Shown piece by piece: positions 2 through 8,440 of a DNA stretch of 42,883 bases. Numbering within the stretch: the first letter of the stretch is position 1; every line of letters starts with the position of its first letter. Source of the DNA: a virus; the IMG/VR virus record IMGVR_UViG_3300030106_006763, positions 1-42,883 of that record. One strand, written 5' to 3'. Under the pieces are notes generated by a model. It was given only the letters and a program-made list of their open reading frames with translations. It was not told the origin of the DNA and did no database searches. The translations under genes and the position numbers were made by a program.

Positions 2-700
2 GAATTAAAAGAATGGTTAGAAGCTGGATATGATACAATTCAAGATTGGGACAAACAATACTCAGATTGGTTTGCTGTACCTAAGTCGATTAAGACCACT
101 TCAGTAAAACCAAGTGGTACGGTATCTCTTTTAGCAGGAGCTACACCAGGATTACATTATCCTGAATCAAGATTTTACATTCGTAGGGTTAGATTATCAA
201 AACATTCAGAGTTGATTGAACCTATGAAAAAAGCAGGTTATAAGATAGAACCAGCGTATGGTTCTGAAGACACTACTTCAGTTGTAGAGGTTCCAGTTGA
301 TGTCGGAGAGGGTATAAGAACAGCGGGGGAACTCTCAATATGGGAACAATTTAATATTGCAGCATTTATGCAAAGACATTGGGCTGACAATCAAGTAAGT
401 TGTACGGTTACATTCAATCCAGAAACAGAGGGAGAACAGATTCCTCACGTCTTAAATTATTTTCAATATCATCTAAAAGGTATTAGTCTTTTACCAAGAC
501 ATGATTATGGAGCTTATCCACAAATGCCTTATGAAGCTATCGATGAAAAGGAATATAACAAACAAATAAAAAATCTCGGTAAATTATCATTTGGTGTAAT
601 TAAGAATGAAGAAGCTGAGATTGATAAGTTTTGTAACAACGATAGTTGTGAAGTTCCATCATTCACTGGTGATAATGATGACCAAGAATATGCGAATTAA
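2..700 (+). CDS. nrdJ: Adenosylcobalamin-dependent ribonucleotide reductase, class II, C-terminal part
   Basis: This is the last 232 codons of a gene that begins before the window. Class II reductases make deoxynucleotides using adenosylcobalamin and no second subunit, and phages use them to feed DNA synthesis. The fragment holds the family's active-site-loop region (KPSGTVSLLAGATPG, bases about 107-151) followed by a YIRRVR segment. Near the end is a Cys-x4-Cys pair (CNNDSC, bases 632-649), which fits the C-terminal redox cysteines that re-reduce the active site in monomeric NrdJ enzymes. The match is to the Lactobacillus leichmannii-type triphosphate reductase rather than class I NrdA. The next gene is a TonB-dependent receptor, which matters because this enzyme needs vitamin B12. 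Confidence 0.88.
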   Translation, partial: ELKEWLEAGYDTIQDWDKQYSDWFAVPKSIKTTSVKPSGTVSLLAGATPGLHYPESRFYIRRVRLSKHSELIEPMKKAGYKIEPAYGSEDTTSVVEVPVDVGEGIRTAGELSIWEQFNIAAFMQRHWADNQVSCTVTFNPETEGEQIPHVLNYFQYHLKGISLLPRHDYGAYPQMPYEAIDEKEYNKQIKNLGKLSFGVIKNEEAEIDKFCNNDSCEVPSFTGDNDDQEYAN

Positions 701-733
701 GATTTCACATACAAAAACAGCGGACAGGCAGTA

Positions 734-757
734 GACACACCTGTGAAAAAATGTGTC
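734..757. repeat. Short inverted repeat before the receptor gene
   Basis: GACACA at 734-739 and TGTGTC at 752-757 form a perfect 6-bp inverted repeat with a 12-base spacer. It lies in the 85-base gap between the reductase stop and the receptor's ribosome binding site. It could be an mRNA hairpin or an operator. There is no U-run to make it a terminator, and no good -35/-10 pair is visible in the gap. It could also be chance. Confidence 0.25.
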
Positions 758-785
758 GTACTTAACAATAACAAGGAGATTCGAT

Positions 786-3560
786 ATGAAAAGTCGTAAT
801 CTAATTGCTATGATGATGACTCTACTAACACCGATAATGTTGTTTGCACAATCGGTAACAGGAACAGTTACATCAGAAGCAGGAGACCCCTTACCTAACG
901 CTAACGTTGTTGTAGTAGGAACCGACATGGGTACTATTTCAGATGAAACTGGAACATTTGTACTTGATTTAGGTGCTGGAAGCTACACAATTACAGCGAC
1001 AGTTATCGGGTTTAAACCACAATCACAAATGGTTAAAGTAAATGAGGGTGATACTGATTTAATGATGGCCTTCATTCTACCATTGAACGTGATTGAATTA
1101 TCAGACGTTGAAGTTCTTGCTTCAAGAGCTGATGATAAAACACCTGTAGCTTACACAACCGTTAGTAAAGAAGAGTTAGAAGTTCGTCTTGGTTCACAAG
1201 ACATTCCAATGGCTCTGAATACTACACCAAGTGTATATGCAACACAACAAGGTGGTGGTGCGGGTGATGCTCGTATCAATGTTCGTGGATTCAACCAGAG
1301 AAACGTAGCAGTTATGATTAACGGAGTTCCCCAAAATGATATGGAGAACGGATGGGTCTATTGGAGTAATTGGGACGGAGTAGCAGACGCTGCTAATTCT
1401 ATTCAGTTACAGAGAGGTCTATCAGCGGTTAATCTAGCTACACCATCTATTGGTGGAACCATGAACATCATTACAGACCCAGCGTCAAACGAGAGAGGTG
1501 GTAAGTTTAAACAAGAGGGTGGTGCAGGTAATTTCTTGAAGACAACTTTTAATTATAATACTGGTTTGATGATGGGTGACAAGTTAGCACTTAGTGGTAC
1601 ATTAGTTCGTAAGACTGGTGATGGTATCATCGATGCTACTTGGACAGATGCTTGGGCTTACTACTTAGGTAGTAGTTTTCAGTTAAACGAGAATCATCGT
1701 TTCGAACTTTATGCGATTGGTGCTCCACAAAGACACGGACAGAATCTATATAAACAGAACATAGCTACATACTCACAAGATTTAGCTGGTGATGTTGATG
1801 GATATGATGTTACTGCTTTTGCTGAGGGTAACAAGTTTGAAACAGAAGCTGGTCGTACATTCAACCAAAATTGGGGAACCGTAAGTTCTGACTACACAGG
1901 TAAACAATATTGGTATATGTATGGTGTCGGTGGATTGTTCGGTGGTGGTAATCAACCAAGATACAACTCAGACTTTCTAAATGAGAGAGAAAACTTCTTT
2001 CACAAACCATTGGTTAACCTTAACCATTTCATGACCATTAACGAAAAGACAAGACTAAGTTCAGTATTGTATTGGAGTGGTGGTTCAGGTGGTGGAACTG
2101 GTACCTATGGTTCTTCATTCAGAAAACCAGCAGTTGATGGTAATAGATGGTGGGCTAGTTCACCTTGGGGTTGGGATTGGGATGCAGCTATTGCAACCAA
2201 CTCTGATAGGGTAGACACTAACTTTCATCCAACCGAAAATCGTTCAAAGGGTATTCTTCGTAACTCAATTAATCGTCAAGATACATACGGTTTGATTTCT
2301 AAACTCAACTACGATGTTAGTGATGAGTTAGAAATACAAGTTGGCCTTGATTGGAGAACTGCTGGAATCGAACACGCTAGAGAAGTTCGTGACCTACTCG
2401 GTGGTGACTACTACGTTGATTATGCTGATGATAACGCACCTGATGGTAAGATTGTAAAACTCGGTGACATCATCGCTTATCATAATCACACAACCGTAGA
2501 TTGGATTGGTGGATTCTTACAAGGTAACTACACTAAAGATAAATTAAATCTTTATGGTATGGGTGGTTTATCAAGTATTAAGTATACCTACCAAGACCAT
2601 TTCACAGTTGAAGATGCGTTAGTCGAAGCAGATGCTATTTCTACTTTCCAAGTAAAGGGTGGAGCTATGTATGACGTGGACGATAATGTTAGTATATTCG
2701 CTAACACAGGCTACGTTCAGAAACCACCTATTATGGATAACGTAATCTACTATGATGGAACTGTTGCTTCAGACCCATCTAATGAGAAGTTTATCAGCTC
2801 AGAGGCTGGTGTAAACTTTTCAACTGAAAATGTAGCAGTCAAAGTAAGTGCTTATAACACCGATTGGATGGATAGAAACCAAACTAAAGCTGTCACAACA
2901 GGTCAAGGTGACTCAGGCGACACCGACGTTATTTTCTTGAGTGGTATCAATCAGAAACACCAAGGTCTTGAGATTGAAGCCTCTATGAAACTTAATGAAA
3001 TAATTCGTTTAGACGGAGCGTTATCATTTGGTAACTGGAAGTTTGATGGAGACGCTAAGGGTAACTATCAAGAGAATGAGTACAATGATGCAGGTCAAGT
3101 CATCGGTCTAAAGACCACACCTTACTCTTATGCACTCAATGGATTATTTGTGGGTGATATGCCTCAGACAGCTTATGTCTTAGGTGCTACACTTACACCA
3201 ATCAAGGGTCTTAGACTACAAGGTATCTTTAAGATGTACGATAAGAACTACGCAGATTGGAGTCCAAACGCACGTGAATACGATGGTAGTGATGCTGATG
3301 CTGACAGAGCACAAGTTTGGGAGGCACCAGGCTACAATCGTTTAGACCTACATGGTTCATACAAACTACCAGAGATTGGTGGTTTAGACATGAGTATTAA
3401 TGCTCATATTTTCAATGCTCTTGATGCAGTTTATGTGCAAGATGCAGTTGATAACTCACAATACAATGGGTATGGTGATAAACTTCACCTACCACATAAC
3501 GCAGAGGTATTCTTAGGAACACCACGTTATGCTAACATTGGATTAGTTGTCAATTTCTAA
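786..3560 (+). CDS. TonB-dependent outer-membrane receptor with carboxypeptidase-regulatory-like N-terminal domain
   Basis: This 924-residue protein is a gated outer-membrane transporter that would take up a ligand using TonB/proton-motive energy. A signal peptide (residues 1 to about 22, ending LFAQ) precedes a CarboxypepD_reg-like beta domain (about 23-105). A possible TonB box (EVLAS), a plug domain with RINVRGF and NGVPQNDMENG motifs, and a long beta-barrel follow. The last residue is Phe, as in barrel proteins folded by BAM. The start at 786 is chosen because AAGGAG lies at 773-778 and the signal peptide begins there; an in-frame ATG 33 bases upstream lacks both. The gene has fewer A/T-biased codons than its neighbours (26 G/C in 60 bases at 1261-1320), suggesting recent capture from a host. 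The ligand is unknown; cobalamin is possible because of the adjacent B12-dependent reductase. Confidence 0.92.
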   Translation: MKSRNLIAMMMTLLTPIMLFAQSVTGTVTSEAGDPLPNANVVVVGTDMGTISDETGTFVLDLGAGSYTITATVIGFKPQSQMVKVNEGDTDLMMAFILPLNVIELSDVEVLASRADDKTPVAYTTVSKEELEVRLGSQDIPMALNTTPSVYATQQGGGAGDARINVRGFNQRNVAVMINGVPQNDMENGWVYWSNWDGVADAANSIQLQRGLSAVNLATPSIGGTMNIITDPASNERGGKFKQEGGAGNFLKTTFNYNTGLMMGDKLALSGTLVRKTGDGIIDATWTDAWAYYLGSSFQLNENHRFELYAIGAPQRHGQNLYKQNIATYSQDLAGDVDGYDVTAFAEGNKFETEAGRTFNQNWGTVSSDYTGKQYWYMYGVGGLFGGGNQPRYNSDFLNERENFFHKPLVNLNHFMTINEKTRLSSVLYWSGGSGGGTGTYGSSFRKPAVDGNRWWASSPWGWDWDAAIATNSDRVDTNFHPTENRSKGILRNSINRQDTYGLISKLNYDVSDELEIQVGLDWRTAGIEHAREVRDLLGGDYYVDYADDNAPDGKIVKLGDIIAYHNHTTVDWIGGFLQGNYTKDKLNLYGMGGLSSIKYTYQDHFTVEDALVEADAISTFQVKGGAMYDVDDNVSIFANTGYVQKPPIMDNVIYYDGTVASDPSNEKFISSEAGVNFSTENVAVKVSAYNTDWMDRNQTKAVTTGQGDSGDTDVIFLSGINQKHQGLEIEASMKLNEIIRLDGALSFGNWKFDGDAKGNYQENEYNDAGQVIGLKTTPYSYALNGLFVGDMPQTAYVLGATLTPIKGLRLQGIFKMYDKNYADWSPNAREYDGSDADADRAQVWEAPGYNRLDLHGSYKLPEIGGLDMSINAHIFNALDAVYVQDAVDNSQYNGYGDKLHLPHNAEVFLGTPRYANIGLVVNF

Positions 3561-3567
3561 GTAATTT

Positions 3568-3597
3568 AAAGGGGGGGATTTATTTCCCCCCTTTTTT
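3568..3597 (+). terminator. Strong intrinsic terminator after the receptor gene
   Basis: AAAGGGGGG (3568-3576) pairs perfectly with CCCCCCTTT (3586-3594) around a 9-base loop, and the T-run continues to 3597. It begins 8 bases after the receptor stop codon. It is the only clear rho-independent terminator in the window, so the receptor sits at the end of its own transcription unit. Confidence 0.93.
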
Positions 3598-4366: not shown

Positions 4367-4396
4367 TTGACAAGTATGTGATTTATTTCGTATATT
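4367..4396 (+). promoter_or_regulatory. Sigma70-type promoter before DNA polymerase
   Basis: TTGACA (4367-4372), an 18-base spacer and TATATT (4391-4396), preceded by a short A-run. The spacer ends in ATTTATTTCG, very like the promoter at 10086 (TTTTATTCG). Transcription would start near 4403, about 23 bases before the polymerase start codon. Confidence 0.75.
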
Positions 4397-4425: not shown

Positions 4426-6933
4426 TTGTATCAAAACATTTACTACGATAGACGTTTAAATAAAATGCACGTATGGGATGACAAAGCGGGTTATCTTACA
4501 TTCAATTACAAAAAATATGCTTATGTAAAAAATAGGACTGGTACATTTGTATCGTTATATGGTGACAGGCTAAAAAAGATAAATAAGTGGGATAAAGACC
4601 AACCAGAATTATTCGAGTCCGATGTCTCACCTGAAATTAGGGTGTTAGTGGATAACTACACAGACTCAGATGAACCATCTGTAGGTAACAAGGTTATGAT
4701 ATTTGATATTGAGGTAGAGGTTACTGATGGTTTTCCCGACCCAAAGAGAGCAGAAAATACAATCACATCAATAGCATTTAATGACCCACTCACACAAGAA
4801 TATTATTGTTATGTTTTGGATACAAAAGACAAACTTGGACTCGGTGAGTCACGAACCAAAAAAGATGGTGATATTATTGTTTCATTCTATGATGAATATG
4901 ATTTATTAAATGCTTTCTTTAAAAAATATGTGGAAATACAACCAACAATACTAACAGGTTGGAATGTCGAGTTCTTTGATGTAAATTATCTCTATAATAG
5001 GGCTCAACAAGTGGTGGGTAAGGATATAGCTAATTTGTTATCACCGATTGGTCAGGTTCAATGGAGTGATTTCAGTAAACGATATAAGATAGCTGGTGTT
5101 AGTGTTTTAGATTATCTAGCACTATATAAAACATTCACATTTAGTCAGAGGGCATCATATAGGTTGGATGCAATCGGTGAGTATGAGGTCGGTGAGAAAA
5201 AGGTCGTATATGAGGGGACACTAAATGACTTATATGAGAACGATATAGATAAGTTTGTTCAATACAACTTACAAGACGTAAAGTTGGTACAAAAGCTAGA
5301 TGATAAACTTAATTTCATTGATATAGGTAGAGGTATAGCCCATTTAGGACATTGTCCTTACGAGGATGTATTTATGTCCTCTCGTTATTTAGAGGGTGCC
5401 ATATTAGTTTATTTAAAGAAAAAAGGCATCGTTGCTCCTAATAAACCACCAAGACCAAAAACATTTGGTAATGATAAATTCGCTGGTGCATATGTACAAG
5501 ACCCAATTAAGGGTAAACATGAGTGGGTTTATGATTTGGATATCACAAGTATGTATCCGTCTTGTATAATGTCTTTGAATATTTCACCTGAGACTAAGAT
5601 AGGTAAGATTGAGGGTTGGTCGCCTGAAGAATTCTTAAAAACAAATCATAGAAAAACTTACACGATAACTAAAAATAATAAGGAGATGGGTAAGTTTACA
5701 GAAAAAGAATTAGCAAAGTTCTTGGATGGAAAAGATATTGGAGTCGCAACAAATGGTGTAATGTATAGAACAGATAAGGATGGATTACTACCAGCCCTAC
5801 TAAGAAAATGGTTCGATGAAAGAGTTGAGTATCGAAAATTATCAAAGAAGTTTCACGAAGAGGGTGATAAAGAACAATCTGATTATTTTGATAGAAGACA
5901 ATATCTACAAAAGGTTTTATTGAATAGTTTGTATGGTGTTTTAGGATTACCTGTGTTTCGATTCTATGACTTGGATAACGCGGAGGCTACAACTTATACA
6001 GGTCAAACTCTGATAAAATTTACAAAAAAGATTGGTAACTCATATTATAATAAAGAATTGAATAACACGGAAAACCATTGTATTTATATAGACACAGACT
6101 CGGTGTTTTACTCCGCTACCCCTCTCGTTAAAAAAAGATTTCCAAATATGGATATTAATGATGAGGATAAAATGTCAAAGGCTATCCTTGAGATAGCTGA
6201 TGAAGTCCAAGGTTATTTAAATAAAAGTTATAATTATTTCGCTAAAAAGTTTTGTAATCTAAATACACATAGATTTGATATTAAACAAGAGGTGATTGCA
6301 AAGAGCGGTCTATTTGTGACTAAGAAAAGATATGGTCTCAAGATTATCAATGACAACGGAAAAAAAGTTGATAAGATGATGGTAAAAGGATTGGATACAG
6401 TCCGTAGTAGTTTTCCTGTAGCGATGAGAACTATGTTGAGTAAACTTTTAGAGGACATATTAATGGATGTTCCAAAAGATAAACTAGATAAGTTTATTAT
6501 TAATTTTAAGGATAGTATGAAACTGATGGAGTTTGATAAGATAGCGATACCAACAAGTGTTAAAGGCATAAAAAAATATAGAACTGATGGTGGGTTATTT
6601 AATTCTTTTGCAAAAGGGACGCCTGTTCATGTGAAGTCAGCATTGTTCTATAATGATATATTAAAACATATGAAGATATCAAAAAGGTTTACGGAAATAT
6701 TTGATGGTGAAAAAATTAAGTGGGTCTATTTAAAAAATAATCCTATTGGATTAGAAACAATAGCATACAAAGGACACGAAGACCCACCAAAAATATTAGA
6801 ATTTATAAGACAATTTATAAATCCTGATAAGTTATATAAACAGGCATTACATAAAAAGATTATGATGTTGTATGAAGCTCTTGGTTGGGATGAACCAACC
6901 GATGCTACAAAGACAATGGAAAGATTTTTTTAA
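4426..6933 (+). CDS. Family B DNA polymerase, T4 gp43-like
   Basis: This 835-residue protein is the replicative polymerase with 3'-5' proofreading. Exonuclease motif I is DIE (D94, E96), exo II is in NVEFFDVNYL and exo III in YNLQDVKLV. Polymerase motif A is DLDITSMYPS (D370-), motif B KVLLNSLYG (496-504) and motif C YIDTDS (D556, D558), all intact. The length is close to T4 gp43 (898). The start is TTG at 4426, with GGAAAG upstream and a promoter ending about 30 bases before. The gene stands directly upstream of the sliding clamp and clamp loader, so it heads a replisome operon. I see no intein or split, both of which occur in phage polymerases. Confidence 0.95.
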   Translation: MYQNIYYDRRLNKMHVWDDKAGYLTFNYKKYAYVKNRTGTFVSLYGDRLKKINKWDKDQPELFESDVSPEIRVLVDNYTDSDEPSVGNKVMIFDIEVEVTDGFPDPKRAENTITSIAFNDPLTQEYYCYVLDTKDKLGLGESRTKKDGDIIVSFYDEYDLLNAFFKKYVEIQPTILTGWNVEFFDVNYLYNRAQQVVGKDIANLLSPIGQVQWSDFSKRYKIAGVSVLDYLALYKTFTFSQRASYRLDAIGEYEVGEKKVVYEGTLNDLYENDIDKFVQYNLQDVKLVQKLDDKLNFIDIGRGIAHLGHCPYEDVFMSSRYLEGAILVYLKKKGIVAPNKPPRPKTFGNDKFAGAYVQDPIKGKHEWVYDLDITSMYPSCIMSLNISPETKIGKIEGWSPEEFLKTNHRKTYTITKNNKEMGKFTEKELAKFLDGKDIGVATNGVMYRTDKDGLLPALLRKWFDERVEYRKLSKKFHEEGDKEQSDYFDRRQYLQKVLLNSLYGVLGLPVFRFYDLDNAEATTYTGQTLIKFTKKIGNSYYNKELNNTENHCIYIDTDSVFYSATPLVKKRFPNMDINDEDKMSKAILEIADEVQGYLNKSYNYFAKKFCNLNTHRFDIKQEVIAKSGLFVTKKRYGLKIINDNGKKVDKMMVKGLDTVRSSFPVAMRTMLSKLLEDILMDVPKDKLDKFIINFKDSMKLMEFDKIAIPTSVKGIKKYRTDGGLFNSFAKGTPVHVKSALFYNDILKHMKISKRFTEIFDGEKIKWVYLKNNPIGLETIAYKGHEDPPKILEFIRQFINPDKLYKQALHKKIMMLYEALGWDEPTDATKTMERFF

Positions 6934-6954: not shown

Positions 6955-7680
6955 ATGAATAAAAGTAAGTTAGTTAGTTTCATAAGTAAGTATTACTTAA
7001 ATGGGACTGTCAACTCGGTTATATTGAACAGTAGTTCAGATAAGAAGCAACTATCATGTAGGTTTATCTCAGGAGATAAGAATTTATTGGGTGAGGTGAA
7101 AATGGATGATTGGGACTTTGAGACATCCGAGATTGGTATCTATTCTACAGACCAACTTTTAAAGTTACTGGCTGTATTAGATGAAGATATCAGAGTAAAC
7201 CTAACAAGAGCTGGTGATAAGGCGATATCACTTAAAATTAACGATTCATCATCGGCGGTGAATTATATGTTAAGTGATACCACCGTAATTAATGCACCAC
7301 CACAAATGAAACAGGTGCCAGAGTTTGAGTTGGAGATTGATGTGACACCATCTTTGATAAATAAATTCATATCAGGTAAAAGCGCTCTATCAGAGGAAGA
7401 ACATTTTACTGTTATCACCGATGGGGGTGGCACAAAATTAGTTATAGGGTATGCTTCTGTTAACACGAATAGGGTAACTATACCTGTGACAACACTAAAG
7501 GGAAGTGAGATACCAAACACATCTTTTGACGCTAATCTTTTCAAAGAAGTTTTATCAGCTAATAAAGAGTGTGAGAGTGCAACCTTGTTTGTTAGTAGTG
7601 AGGGATTATCTAAAATAACGTTTGAAATAGATAAATACTCTGCTACATATTACTTGGTGGCAAAAAGTACGAATGACTAA
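6955..7680 (+). CDS. Sliding clamp, T4 gp45-like
   Basis: This 241-residue acidic protein has the length and internal repeat architecture of T4-type DNA polymerase processivity clamps. Landmarks are an N-terminal FISKYYLNGTVNSVIL segment, a central FELEIDVTPSLINKFI strand-helix and a C-terminal LSKITFEIDKYSATYYLVAK strand. It would form a trimeric ring that tethers the polymerase, and in T4 also activates late transcription. TAGGAGAA lies just upstream. It follows the polymerase by 21 bases and overlaps the Mom-like gene by 8 bases. The call relies on fold-like pattern and context rather than on short catalytic motifs, since clamps have none. Confidence 0.85.
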   Translation: MNKSKLVSFISKYYLNGTVNSVILNSSSDKKQLSCRFISGDKNLLGEVKMDDWDFETSEIGIYSTDQLLKLLAVLDEDIRVNLTRAGDKAISLKINDSSSAVNYMLSDTTVINAPPQMKQVPEFELEIDVTPSLINKFISGKSALSEEEHFTVITDGGGTKLVIGYASVNTNRVTIPVTTLKGSEIPNTSFDANLFKEVLSANKECESATLFVSSEGLSKITFEIDKYSATYYLVAKSTND

Positions 7681-8440
7681 TACCTGCGACATTAGCAAGG
7701 TATCGGTTAGAGAGATACCTAAAGCGACAGCAAAGAAGATGATTAAAAAGTATCATTACACTCATTCATTTTCTTCGTGTAGATTTGCTTTAGGTATCTT
7801 TTACCAAAAAGATTCACAACATAAGTTTTTCGATGATGTGGATGAGGAGTTAATCGGTTGTATGAGCTATGGATATCCTGTGGGTAGAAGTGTGGTTGGT
7901 TCAATCTTTACAGATGATAAAATGTTAGGAACAAATAATATTTTAGAACTTACAAGACTTTTCATCCATGATGGTTATGGCAAAAATATTGAATCTTATT
8001 CAATATCACAATCATTTAAATGGTTAAAACGTAATTCAAAAAATATAAAGGTTTTGATATCATACGCTGACCCTACTGTAAAACATAATGGTAGTATCTA
8101 CCAGGCTACAAATTGGATTTATCAAGGTGAAGGGTTGAATCTTATGCCTAACTTTTCTGTTTCACTAACAAAACCATATGATTGGATTCATAGTAGAACA
8201 GTATTTTCAAGATTCGGTAGTCATAATATCGAGAAGTTAGGTAAAGCGATAGGTCACACCTTTTGGAGAATGAGAGAGCTTGAAAAACATAGGTATGTAT
8301 ATTTTCTTGGTAATAAGAAAGAAAACAAACTATTTATAAGTAAGTTAAAATATCAGAAACTAACCTATCCAAAGGTTGGTGACATCAAAATAGAAATTAC
8401 AGAACACAAGGTAAAAGAAAAAAAAGGTTTTTATGAGTAA
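7673..8440 (+). CDS. Mom-like DNA adenine modification protein (GNAT fold)
   Basis: This 255-residue protein resembles phage Mu Mom, which converts adenine in DNA to a methylcarbamoyl form and makes phage DNA resistant to restriction. Features seen are KKYHYTHSFSSCRFALGIFY near the N-terminus, the strand ELIGCMSYGYPVG, the LELTRLFIHDGYGKN acetyltransferase-like core and the VLISYADP strand. The family is related to GNAT acetyltransferases. The gene lies inside the replisome operon, overlapping the clamp by 8 bases and the clamp loader by 8. It may therefore be expressed with replication and act on newly made DNA. In phage Mu a GATC-masked, transcriptionally controlled mom promoter is used; nothing similar is seen here. 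Confidence 0.75.
   Translation: MTNTCDISKVSVREIPKATAKKMIKKYHYTHSFSSCRFALGIFYQKDSQHKFFDDVDEELIGCMSYGYPVGRSVVGSIFTDDKMLGTNNILELTRLFIHDGYGKNIESYSISQSFKWLKRNSKNIKVLISYADPTVKHNGSIYQATNWIYQGEGLNLMPNFSVSLTKPYDWIHSRTVFSRFGSHNIEKLGKAIGHTFWRMRELEKHRYVYFLGNKKENKLFISKLKYQKLTYPKVGDIKIEITEHKVKEKKGFYE

Follow-up and report, generated by a model that had tools for sequence, protein, structure and literature searches.

A putative TonB-dependent receptor (SusC) has been reported in the marine megaphages Mar_Mega_1 and LR745206, where it was proposed to raise uptake during infection (PMC9723777). Here we describe a TonB-dependent outer-membrane receptor (TBDT) gene, and a candidate regulatory RNA pseudoknot in its 5' leader, in the IMG/VR virus record IMGVR_UViG_3300030106_006763 (positions 1 to 42,883; this whole stretch of 42,883 nucleotides is referred to as the window). 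The megaphages share with the window a phage-encoded TBDT but differ in other respects: they are 650-kb genomes, their receptor does not belong to the family found in Candidatus Neomarinimicrobiota (SAR406) and does not lie between nrdJ and polB, and no leader element was reported (PMC9723777). The LR745206 protein matches the window TBDT only in the N-terminal/plug part (34%). In a fold search of BFVD the sole TBDT among the viral matches was A0A8D9FQQ5, 'TonB-dependent receptor SusC [uncultured marine phage]', and unannotated records of human-gut phage collections match the window TBDT at about 30% or less. In the open-access literature we found no report of this viral TBDT family, its origin from SAR406 or its leader, the megaphages being the only precedent found.

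On the cellular side the counterpart is the chromosomal SAR406 ortholog (e.g. L085): most of the full-length ones are 51-69% identical to the window TBDT and have the same domains, putative TonB box and loops, but their upstream region is different, without the pseudoknot, and their neighbours are others, e.g. a SRAP peptidase gene. For the leader, the comparison is with the gene 32 mRNA of T4 and RB69, in which gp32 assembles along an unstructured, UUAAA-rich ribosome-binding site, starting from a pseudoknot of ~28 nt as nucleation point (PMC535899). The TBDT leader is likewise a pseudoknot of ~30 nt located 5' of an unstructured A/U-rich Shine-Dalgarno stretch in a T4-like phage; it differs in sequence and stems, and it would control a receptor gene. 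H-type pseudoknots with an A-rich loop near the ribosome-binding site are also found in the preQ1-I and SAM-II riboswitches. Unlike these, the TBDT leader has no Rfam match at E<=10 and its Shine-Dalgarno sequence lies outside the knot, 15 nt downstream.

We consider it fairly probable that the window carries a domesticated SAR406 transporter cassette, lodged between nrdJ and polB, which maintains nutrient uptake during infection and whose translation is controlled by the pseudoknot. The elements of the cassette are the following.

724-757, + strand: H-type RNA pseudoknot in the TBDT 5' leader, with covariation in both helices
724-728 (ACAGG) with 740-744 (CCTGT), + strand: stem 1 of the pseudoknot
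734-739 (GACACA) with 752-757 (TGTGTC), + strand: stem 2 of the pseudoknot
729-733 and 745-751, + strand: loop 1 and the A-rich loop 3 of the pseudoknot
758-785, + strand: A-rich spacer with the Shine-Dalgarno sequence AAGGAG (773-778), identified by sequence; this layout is conserved among the viral leaders
786-3560, + strand: TBDT gene (924 aa), identified by Pfam, an AlphaFold2 barrel, fold matches in the PDB, and viral and SAR406 relatives
Within the protein (aa): signal peptide; CarboxypepD_reg 23-105; putative TonB box TPVAY ~119-123; plug ~128-235; beta-barrel 238-924
3571-3597, + strand: intrinsic terminator, GGGGGGG-ATTTATTT-CCCCC followed by a T run (minimum free energy -20.8 kcal/mol, z -3.4)

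The pseudoknot of the window, ACAGG-CAGTA-GACACA-CCTGT-GAAAAAA-TGTGTC (724-757), consists of two interleaved helices. It ends 29 nt upstream of the start codon and 15 nt upstream of the Shine-Dalgarno sequence, with the A-rich spacer in between. Taken alone this match is weak, since the shuffled window contains a pseudoknot as strong as this one about once in 43 kb, and the leader shows nothing unusual when it is folded with pseudoknots disallowed (z -0.78); the case is therefore carried by covariation. The motif was present in 79/79 phage TBDT leaders, taken from loci fetched with the TBDT and chosen without use of the motif. Covariation was computed on the 38 distinct pseudoknot cores, with shuffles and slid partners as controls. 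Standard pairs account for 96.2% of the pair cells, and double changes are seen in 34 cells versus 7.6 ± 2.3 in the shuffles; the covariation score is 0.271, versus 0.122 for shuffled cores and at most 0.078 with slid partners. Stem 1 is found as ACAGG/CCTGT, ACTGG/CCAGT, CCTGG/CCAGG, ATAGG/CCTAT and GCAGG/CCTGC, and stem 2 as GACACA/TGTGTC, GACGCA/TGCGTC, GGCACA/TGTGCC, AGCACA/TGTGCT and AACACA/TGTGTT. In L289, if not in other relatives too, the pseudoknot is degenerate.

A pattern scan of IMG/VR returned at least 169 instances, which include overlapping loci from the same contig, and among the matches listed all are located just 5' of a phage TBDT: 159 were confirmed by tblastn, and the other 10 stand at a contig end with the same gene start. 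The pseudoknot is absent from the SAR406 host orthologs, whose upstream region is different, and Rfam covariance models applied to window 600-900 (E<=10) gave no relevant family and no known riboswitch class. We regard it as a candidate new regulatory RNA, not described before in the open-access literature or in Rfam. That it represents a class of phage regulatory RNA dedicated to a virus-carried transporter, timing its translation with the infection cycle, e.g. via the phage single-strand-binding protein, has in our opinion an even chance of being right.

Comparison of occupied and empty sites delimits the cassette. In six viral loci (L298, L303, L305, L311, L326 and L329) nrdJ is followed after ~80 nt by the polB promoter and gene, and TBDT, pseudoknot and terminator are all absent. 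Other loci differ upstream of the receptor: in L016-L019 the TBDT is preceded by a membrane (TM) protein gene, with an Hsp20-like gene further upstream and no adjacent nrdJ, and in L283 (8024-9025) a gene for a GlnII glutamine synthetase (444 bits, just below the cut-off of 500) is inserted between nrdJ and TBDT. The start of a GlnII gene, recognised by sequence only, also follows nrdJ in L266 and L318. Despite the changed upstream gene the pseudoknot stays directly 5' of the TBDT in L016-L019 and in L007 (same contig as L283). Since the empty sites lack all three elements and the pseudoknot stays with the TBDT when the upstream gene changes, these comparisons indicate that the unit is pseudoknot, TBDT and terminator. 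The strong terminator that the original prediction, made from the letters of the window, had assigned to the TBDT gene is indeed its own: its position is conserved in the relatives while its stem sequence varies, and it is missing at the sites without TBDT. In L079 and L081 an apparent tRNA gene, read from the sequence, stands straight after the TBDT stop, in the place of the terminator.

The presence of a full receptor on phage DNA, as had been proposed, is supported by an intact reading frame in which the first start codon is a GTG at 753 and the stop ends at 3560. The true start is almost certainly the ATG at 786, because it is preceded by AAGGAG at 773-778 and gives a signal-peptide-like N-terminus. 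The domains CarboxypepD_reg (E 3.5e-16) and Plug (PF07715, E 2e-15) are above the Pfam cut-off. An AlphaFold2 model built with 72 homologs reached a mean predicted local distance difference test (pLDDT) of 69.7 and a predicted template modelling score of 0.66; its barrel, of ~22-24 strands, is mostly at pLDDT 75-85, and all the matches listed for it in the PDB fold search are TBDTs (Fiu, FhuA, PqqU, FoxA, FecA and others). The motif TPVAY before the plug, taken as TonB box by analogy of position, is conserved in viral and host sequences. The protein scores 64.9 bits with the SusC/RagA model TIGR04056 (cut-off 368), and there is no gene for a SusD lipoprotein among the scanned neighbours of the TBDT in the window or in L085/L092.

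Viral and host TBDT proteins show zero fixed differences. When the long stretches between strands of the model are taken to be the extracellular loops, the mean entropy among viral sequences is 0.66 in loops, 0.63 in barrel strands, 1.08 in periplasmic turns and 0.22 in the plug, which is nearly invariant; the loops thus vary no more than the strands and less than the turns. The dN/dS ratio is 0.08-0.27 among viral pairs and similar among host pairs, which indicates that the viral gene is kept under purifying selection. Given this selection, and given that plug, extracellular loops and the putative TonB box have all been kept, the viral TBDT is probably a working transporter.

The cellular relatives of the TBDT belong almost all to SAR406. 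Each of six SAR406 genomes (6/6) has one close ortholog, 52-69% identical, the 8 to 18 other TBDT matches per genome aligning over the N-terminal region only; an ortholog is found in 25/41 relatives of the SAR406 genome G001 and is single-copy in most. In a tree of 88 sequences the 52 viral ones all fall into one clade (support of 100 in the Shimodaira-Hasegawa-like approximate likelihood ratio test) that is nested inside the host family. The approximately unbiased test does not reject a clade made up of viral sequences alone (p-AU 0.194). The phylogeny proposed as a check thus supports a capture from a host, apparently one event with SAR406 as donor, and the pattern fits one old capture. A recent capture is ruled out by the depth of the viral clade and the phage-like GC content at third codon positions (GC3). 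On this last point the original prediction, which held the codons of the gene to be less AT-biased, has to be corrected: its GC3 (0.292) is inside the range of the 16 other window genes compared (0.20-0.32), and only the overall GC is raised (0.402 versus 0.30-0.355 in the same genes). From the affiliation of their receptor, the viruses carrying it probably infect SAR406 bacteria.

Upstream of the gene, the heptamer CACATAC is found at window 706-712, and many viral TBDT genes have it ~70-80 nt upstream of their start codon. It also occurs 60-85 nt before the start in 3/32 host genes (L085, L093 and L102), where ~0.1 would be expected. It may be a promoter or operator that was captured, but the agreement is suggestive only. 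In one SAR406 clade (L090, L101, L104, L119, L125, L135 and L137) a conserved leader of ~150 nt is located 5' of the host TBDT; it contains a TTGACA element and segments that resemble hairpins, and is unlike the phage pseudoknot. The genes near the host TBDT, for a SRAP peptidase, a rhomboid protein, RecO, prolyl-tRNA synthetase and an AlgH-like protein, were considered as a guide to the substrate and are uninformative.

The genes and signals on both sides of the cassette are the following.

2-700, + strand: nrdJ, C-terminal fragment of a class II (adenosylcobalamin-dependent) ribonucleotide reductase, truncated by the contig start; usual upstream neighbour
4367-4396, + strand: sigma70-like promoter before polB (TTGACA-N18-TATATT, found by scan), located 3' of the cassette in occupied sites and directly 3' of nrdJ in empty sites
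4426-6933, + strand: polB, T4-type family B DNA polymerase (PF00136, E 2.3e-36; phrog_262, E 1.3e-184); usual downstream neighbour

The adjacent class II reductase named at the outset is confirmed: the fragment 2-700 matches phrog_367 (E 6.5e-51) and the RTPR model TIGR02505 (E 1.6e-36), and a full-length relative (L005) passes the cut-off of this curated adenosylcobalamin-dependent family (368 versus 340 bits). In the short stretch that separates nrdJ from the TBDT, no conserved or clear promoter could be recognised. The polB promoter element is also found in the six loci with an empty site and in L022, L025 and L036. Further downstream a Mom-like DNA modification protein is encoded between clamp and clamp loader (7673-8440), and ~25 kb of the window (12754-38560) code for glycosyltransferases, methyltransferases, UDP-glucose dehydrogenase, nucleotide-sugar epimerase, heptose kinase/adenylyltransferase and aminotransferase, i.e. 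a large glycan or lipopolysaccharide island.

A full TBDT is unusual in a phage, and an assembly chimera or host DNA inside a viral contig had to be considered. The search in related phages that had been suggested as a check gave 316 IMG/VR stretches encoding TBDT relatives, of which the best 80, 69-94% identical, were taken as loci. Relatives of nrdJ are present in 74/80 of these, usually adjacent, and relatives of polB in 66/80; the order nrdJ-TBDT-polB-clamp-clamp loader recurs in most of the long loci, across dozens of contigs, many of the gaps being contig ends, and a scan started from the reductase side recovered the identical order. The T4 protein gp32 is encoded on 19/23 TBDT-bearing contigs and gp23 on 1/14, and on these grounds the contigs are viral. 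The T4 portal model PF07230 gave zero matches, controls included, and is uninformative. Two loci labelled as cellular, L082 (Flavobacteriales) and L131 (Euryarchaeota), are viral contigs binned into metagenome-assembled genomes; they have nrdJ beside the TBDT and the viral leader. Because this synteny extends over many independent contigs, dozens of which have the same junctions, the assembly of host DNA into the contig, which the original prediction had asked to exclude, is refuted. The phage-only leader element, the separation of the viral TBDT clade from host genes and the presence of gp32 on the same contigs likewise speak against it, and we give a chimera practically no credit.

Three other functions have to be weighed against the maintenance of uptake by a cassette under pseudoknot control. 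The original prediction suggested the import of cobalamin for the neighbouring reductase, and the frequent presence of an nrdJ relative in the viral loci (74 of 80, usually adjacent to the TBDT) as well as the adenosylcobalamin-dependent type of this reductase are in its favour. The two genes are nevertheless separable both ways, which disfavours such an import: six viral loci have nrdJ but no TBDT, and four (L016-L019) have the TBDT with no nrdJ adjacent to it, although nrdJ may be elsewhere in the genome. Moreover, the six SAR406 genomes carry a single cobalamin riboswitch apiece, and in none is it located at the TBDT ortholog; in 5/6 it precedes a gene that reads as a different TBDT (by Pfam plug/CarbopepD matches or by sequence, the Pfam scans covering genomes other than the sixth, L261). 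No such riboswitch was found near the phage TBDT (Rfam, window 600-900) or near 11 host orthologs, and no BtuB/B12-receptor NCBIfam model matches the TBDT. A role in restoring cobalamin supply therefore appears quite improbable.

The phage copy could also serve to replace the host ortholog, should this be lost or blocked, e.g. as the entry receptor of the virus, any gain in uptake being secondary. The phage gene does duplicate a single-copy, widely conserved host receptor with zero fixed differences, and TBDTs such as FhuA, which is among the fold matches, are classic phage receptors. But nothing here marks the host ortholog as an entry receptor, and an identical-looking surface protein would also attract superinfecting phages; we find this replacement unlikely, although it deserves to be kept in mind. 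Superinfection exclusion, in which the phage copy would block or decoy the surface against competing phages, was a further proposal of the original prediction. Exclusion by phage surface proteins is common, e.g. Llp of T5 acting on FhuA, and the TBDT has long surface-exposed loops. These loops and the plug are however conserved with the host protein and not altered, the putative TonB box is retained, and a functional copy should add receptors rather than remove them. Such conservation is more in line with transport of an unchanged ligand than with decoying or exclusion, for which altered loops would be expected, and leaves exclusion very improbable.

Several observations also count against a SAR406 transporter cassette under pseudoknot control. 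The structure prediction gave the expected barrel, but the plug is poorly modelled (pLDDT about 30) and the fold matches are generic, with siderophore and other TBDTs, so that the fold was rejected as a guide to the substrate. A short cellular contig with a long branch, L083, falls within the viral TBDT clade. The assignment to SAR406 hosts comes from a single gene, the TBDT; the phage nrdJ offers no second link, not being close to SAR406 reductases, with partial matches of 23-26% only. The interleaved dyads of the leader could in principle be DNA-level operator sites. Finally the pseudoknot was not found in 19 gp32 leaders of these viruses, and control of the TBDT leader by gp32 is consequently proposed by analogy only. 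Before the start, the gp32 leaders (L332-L350) contain a hairpin, for example TCAAGGTTACACTTGA, and after it TTAAC (UUAAC-type) repeats, possibly gp32's own autogenous operator.

The cassette would work as follows. The TBDT would be read on the nrdJ transcript, probably so because the short gap has no clear promoter, and this transcript would end at the terminator 3571-3597, ahead of the polB promoter 4367-4396. Translation would be controlled by the pseudoknot, which stands 5' of the unstructured A-rich ribosome-binding site, through binding of a phage protein (as gp32 does on the T4 gene 32 operator) or a small ligand. TBDTs work in the outer membrane together with TonB; the predicted protein would be exported there, be powered by the TonB-ExbBD motor of the host, and maintain or boost, during the shut-off of host synthesis, the uptake of the nutrient that the host ortholog imports.

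SAR406 bacteria are abundant in the ocean and uncultured, and we found no paper on their T4-like viruses in the open-access literature. The TBDT gene offers a sequence handle that would tie several hundred viral fragments to this group. The gene is real and functionally constrained. It shows that a complete outer-membrane transporter can persist in phages, probably under regulation of their own, for long evolutionary periods and not only in the megaphages already reported. The candidate regulatory RNA is its most interesting part: being compact and having covarying helices, the pseudoknot is a possible regulator that is directly testable in E. coli. If the proposed control is true, nutrient uptake could for example track DNA replication through the phage single-strand-binding protein.

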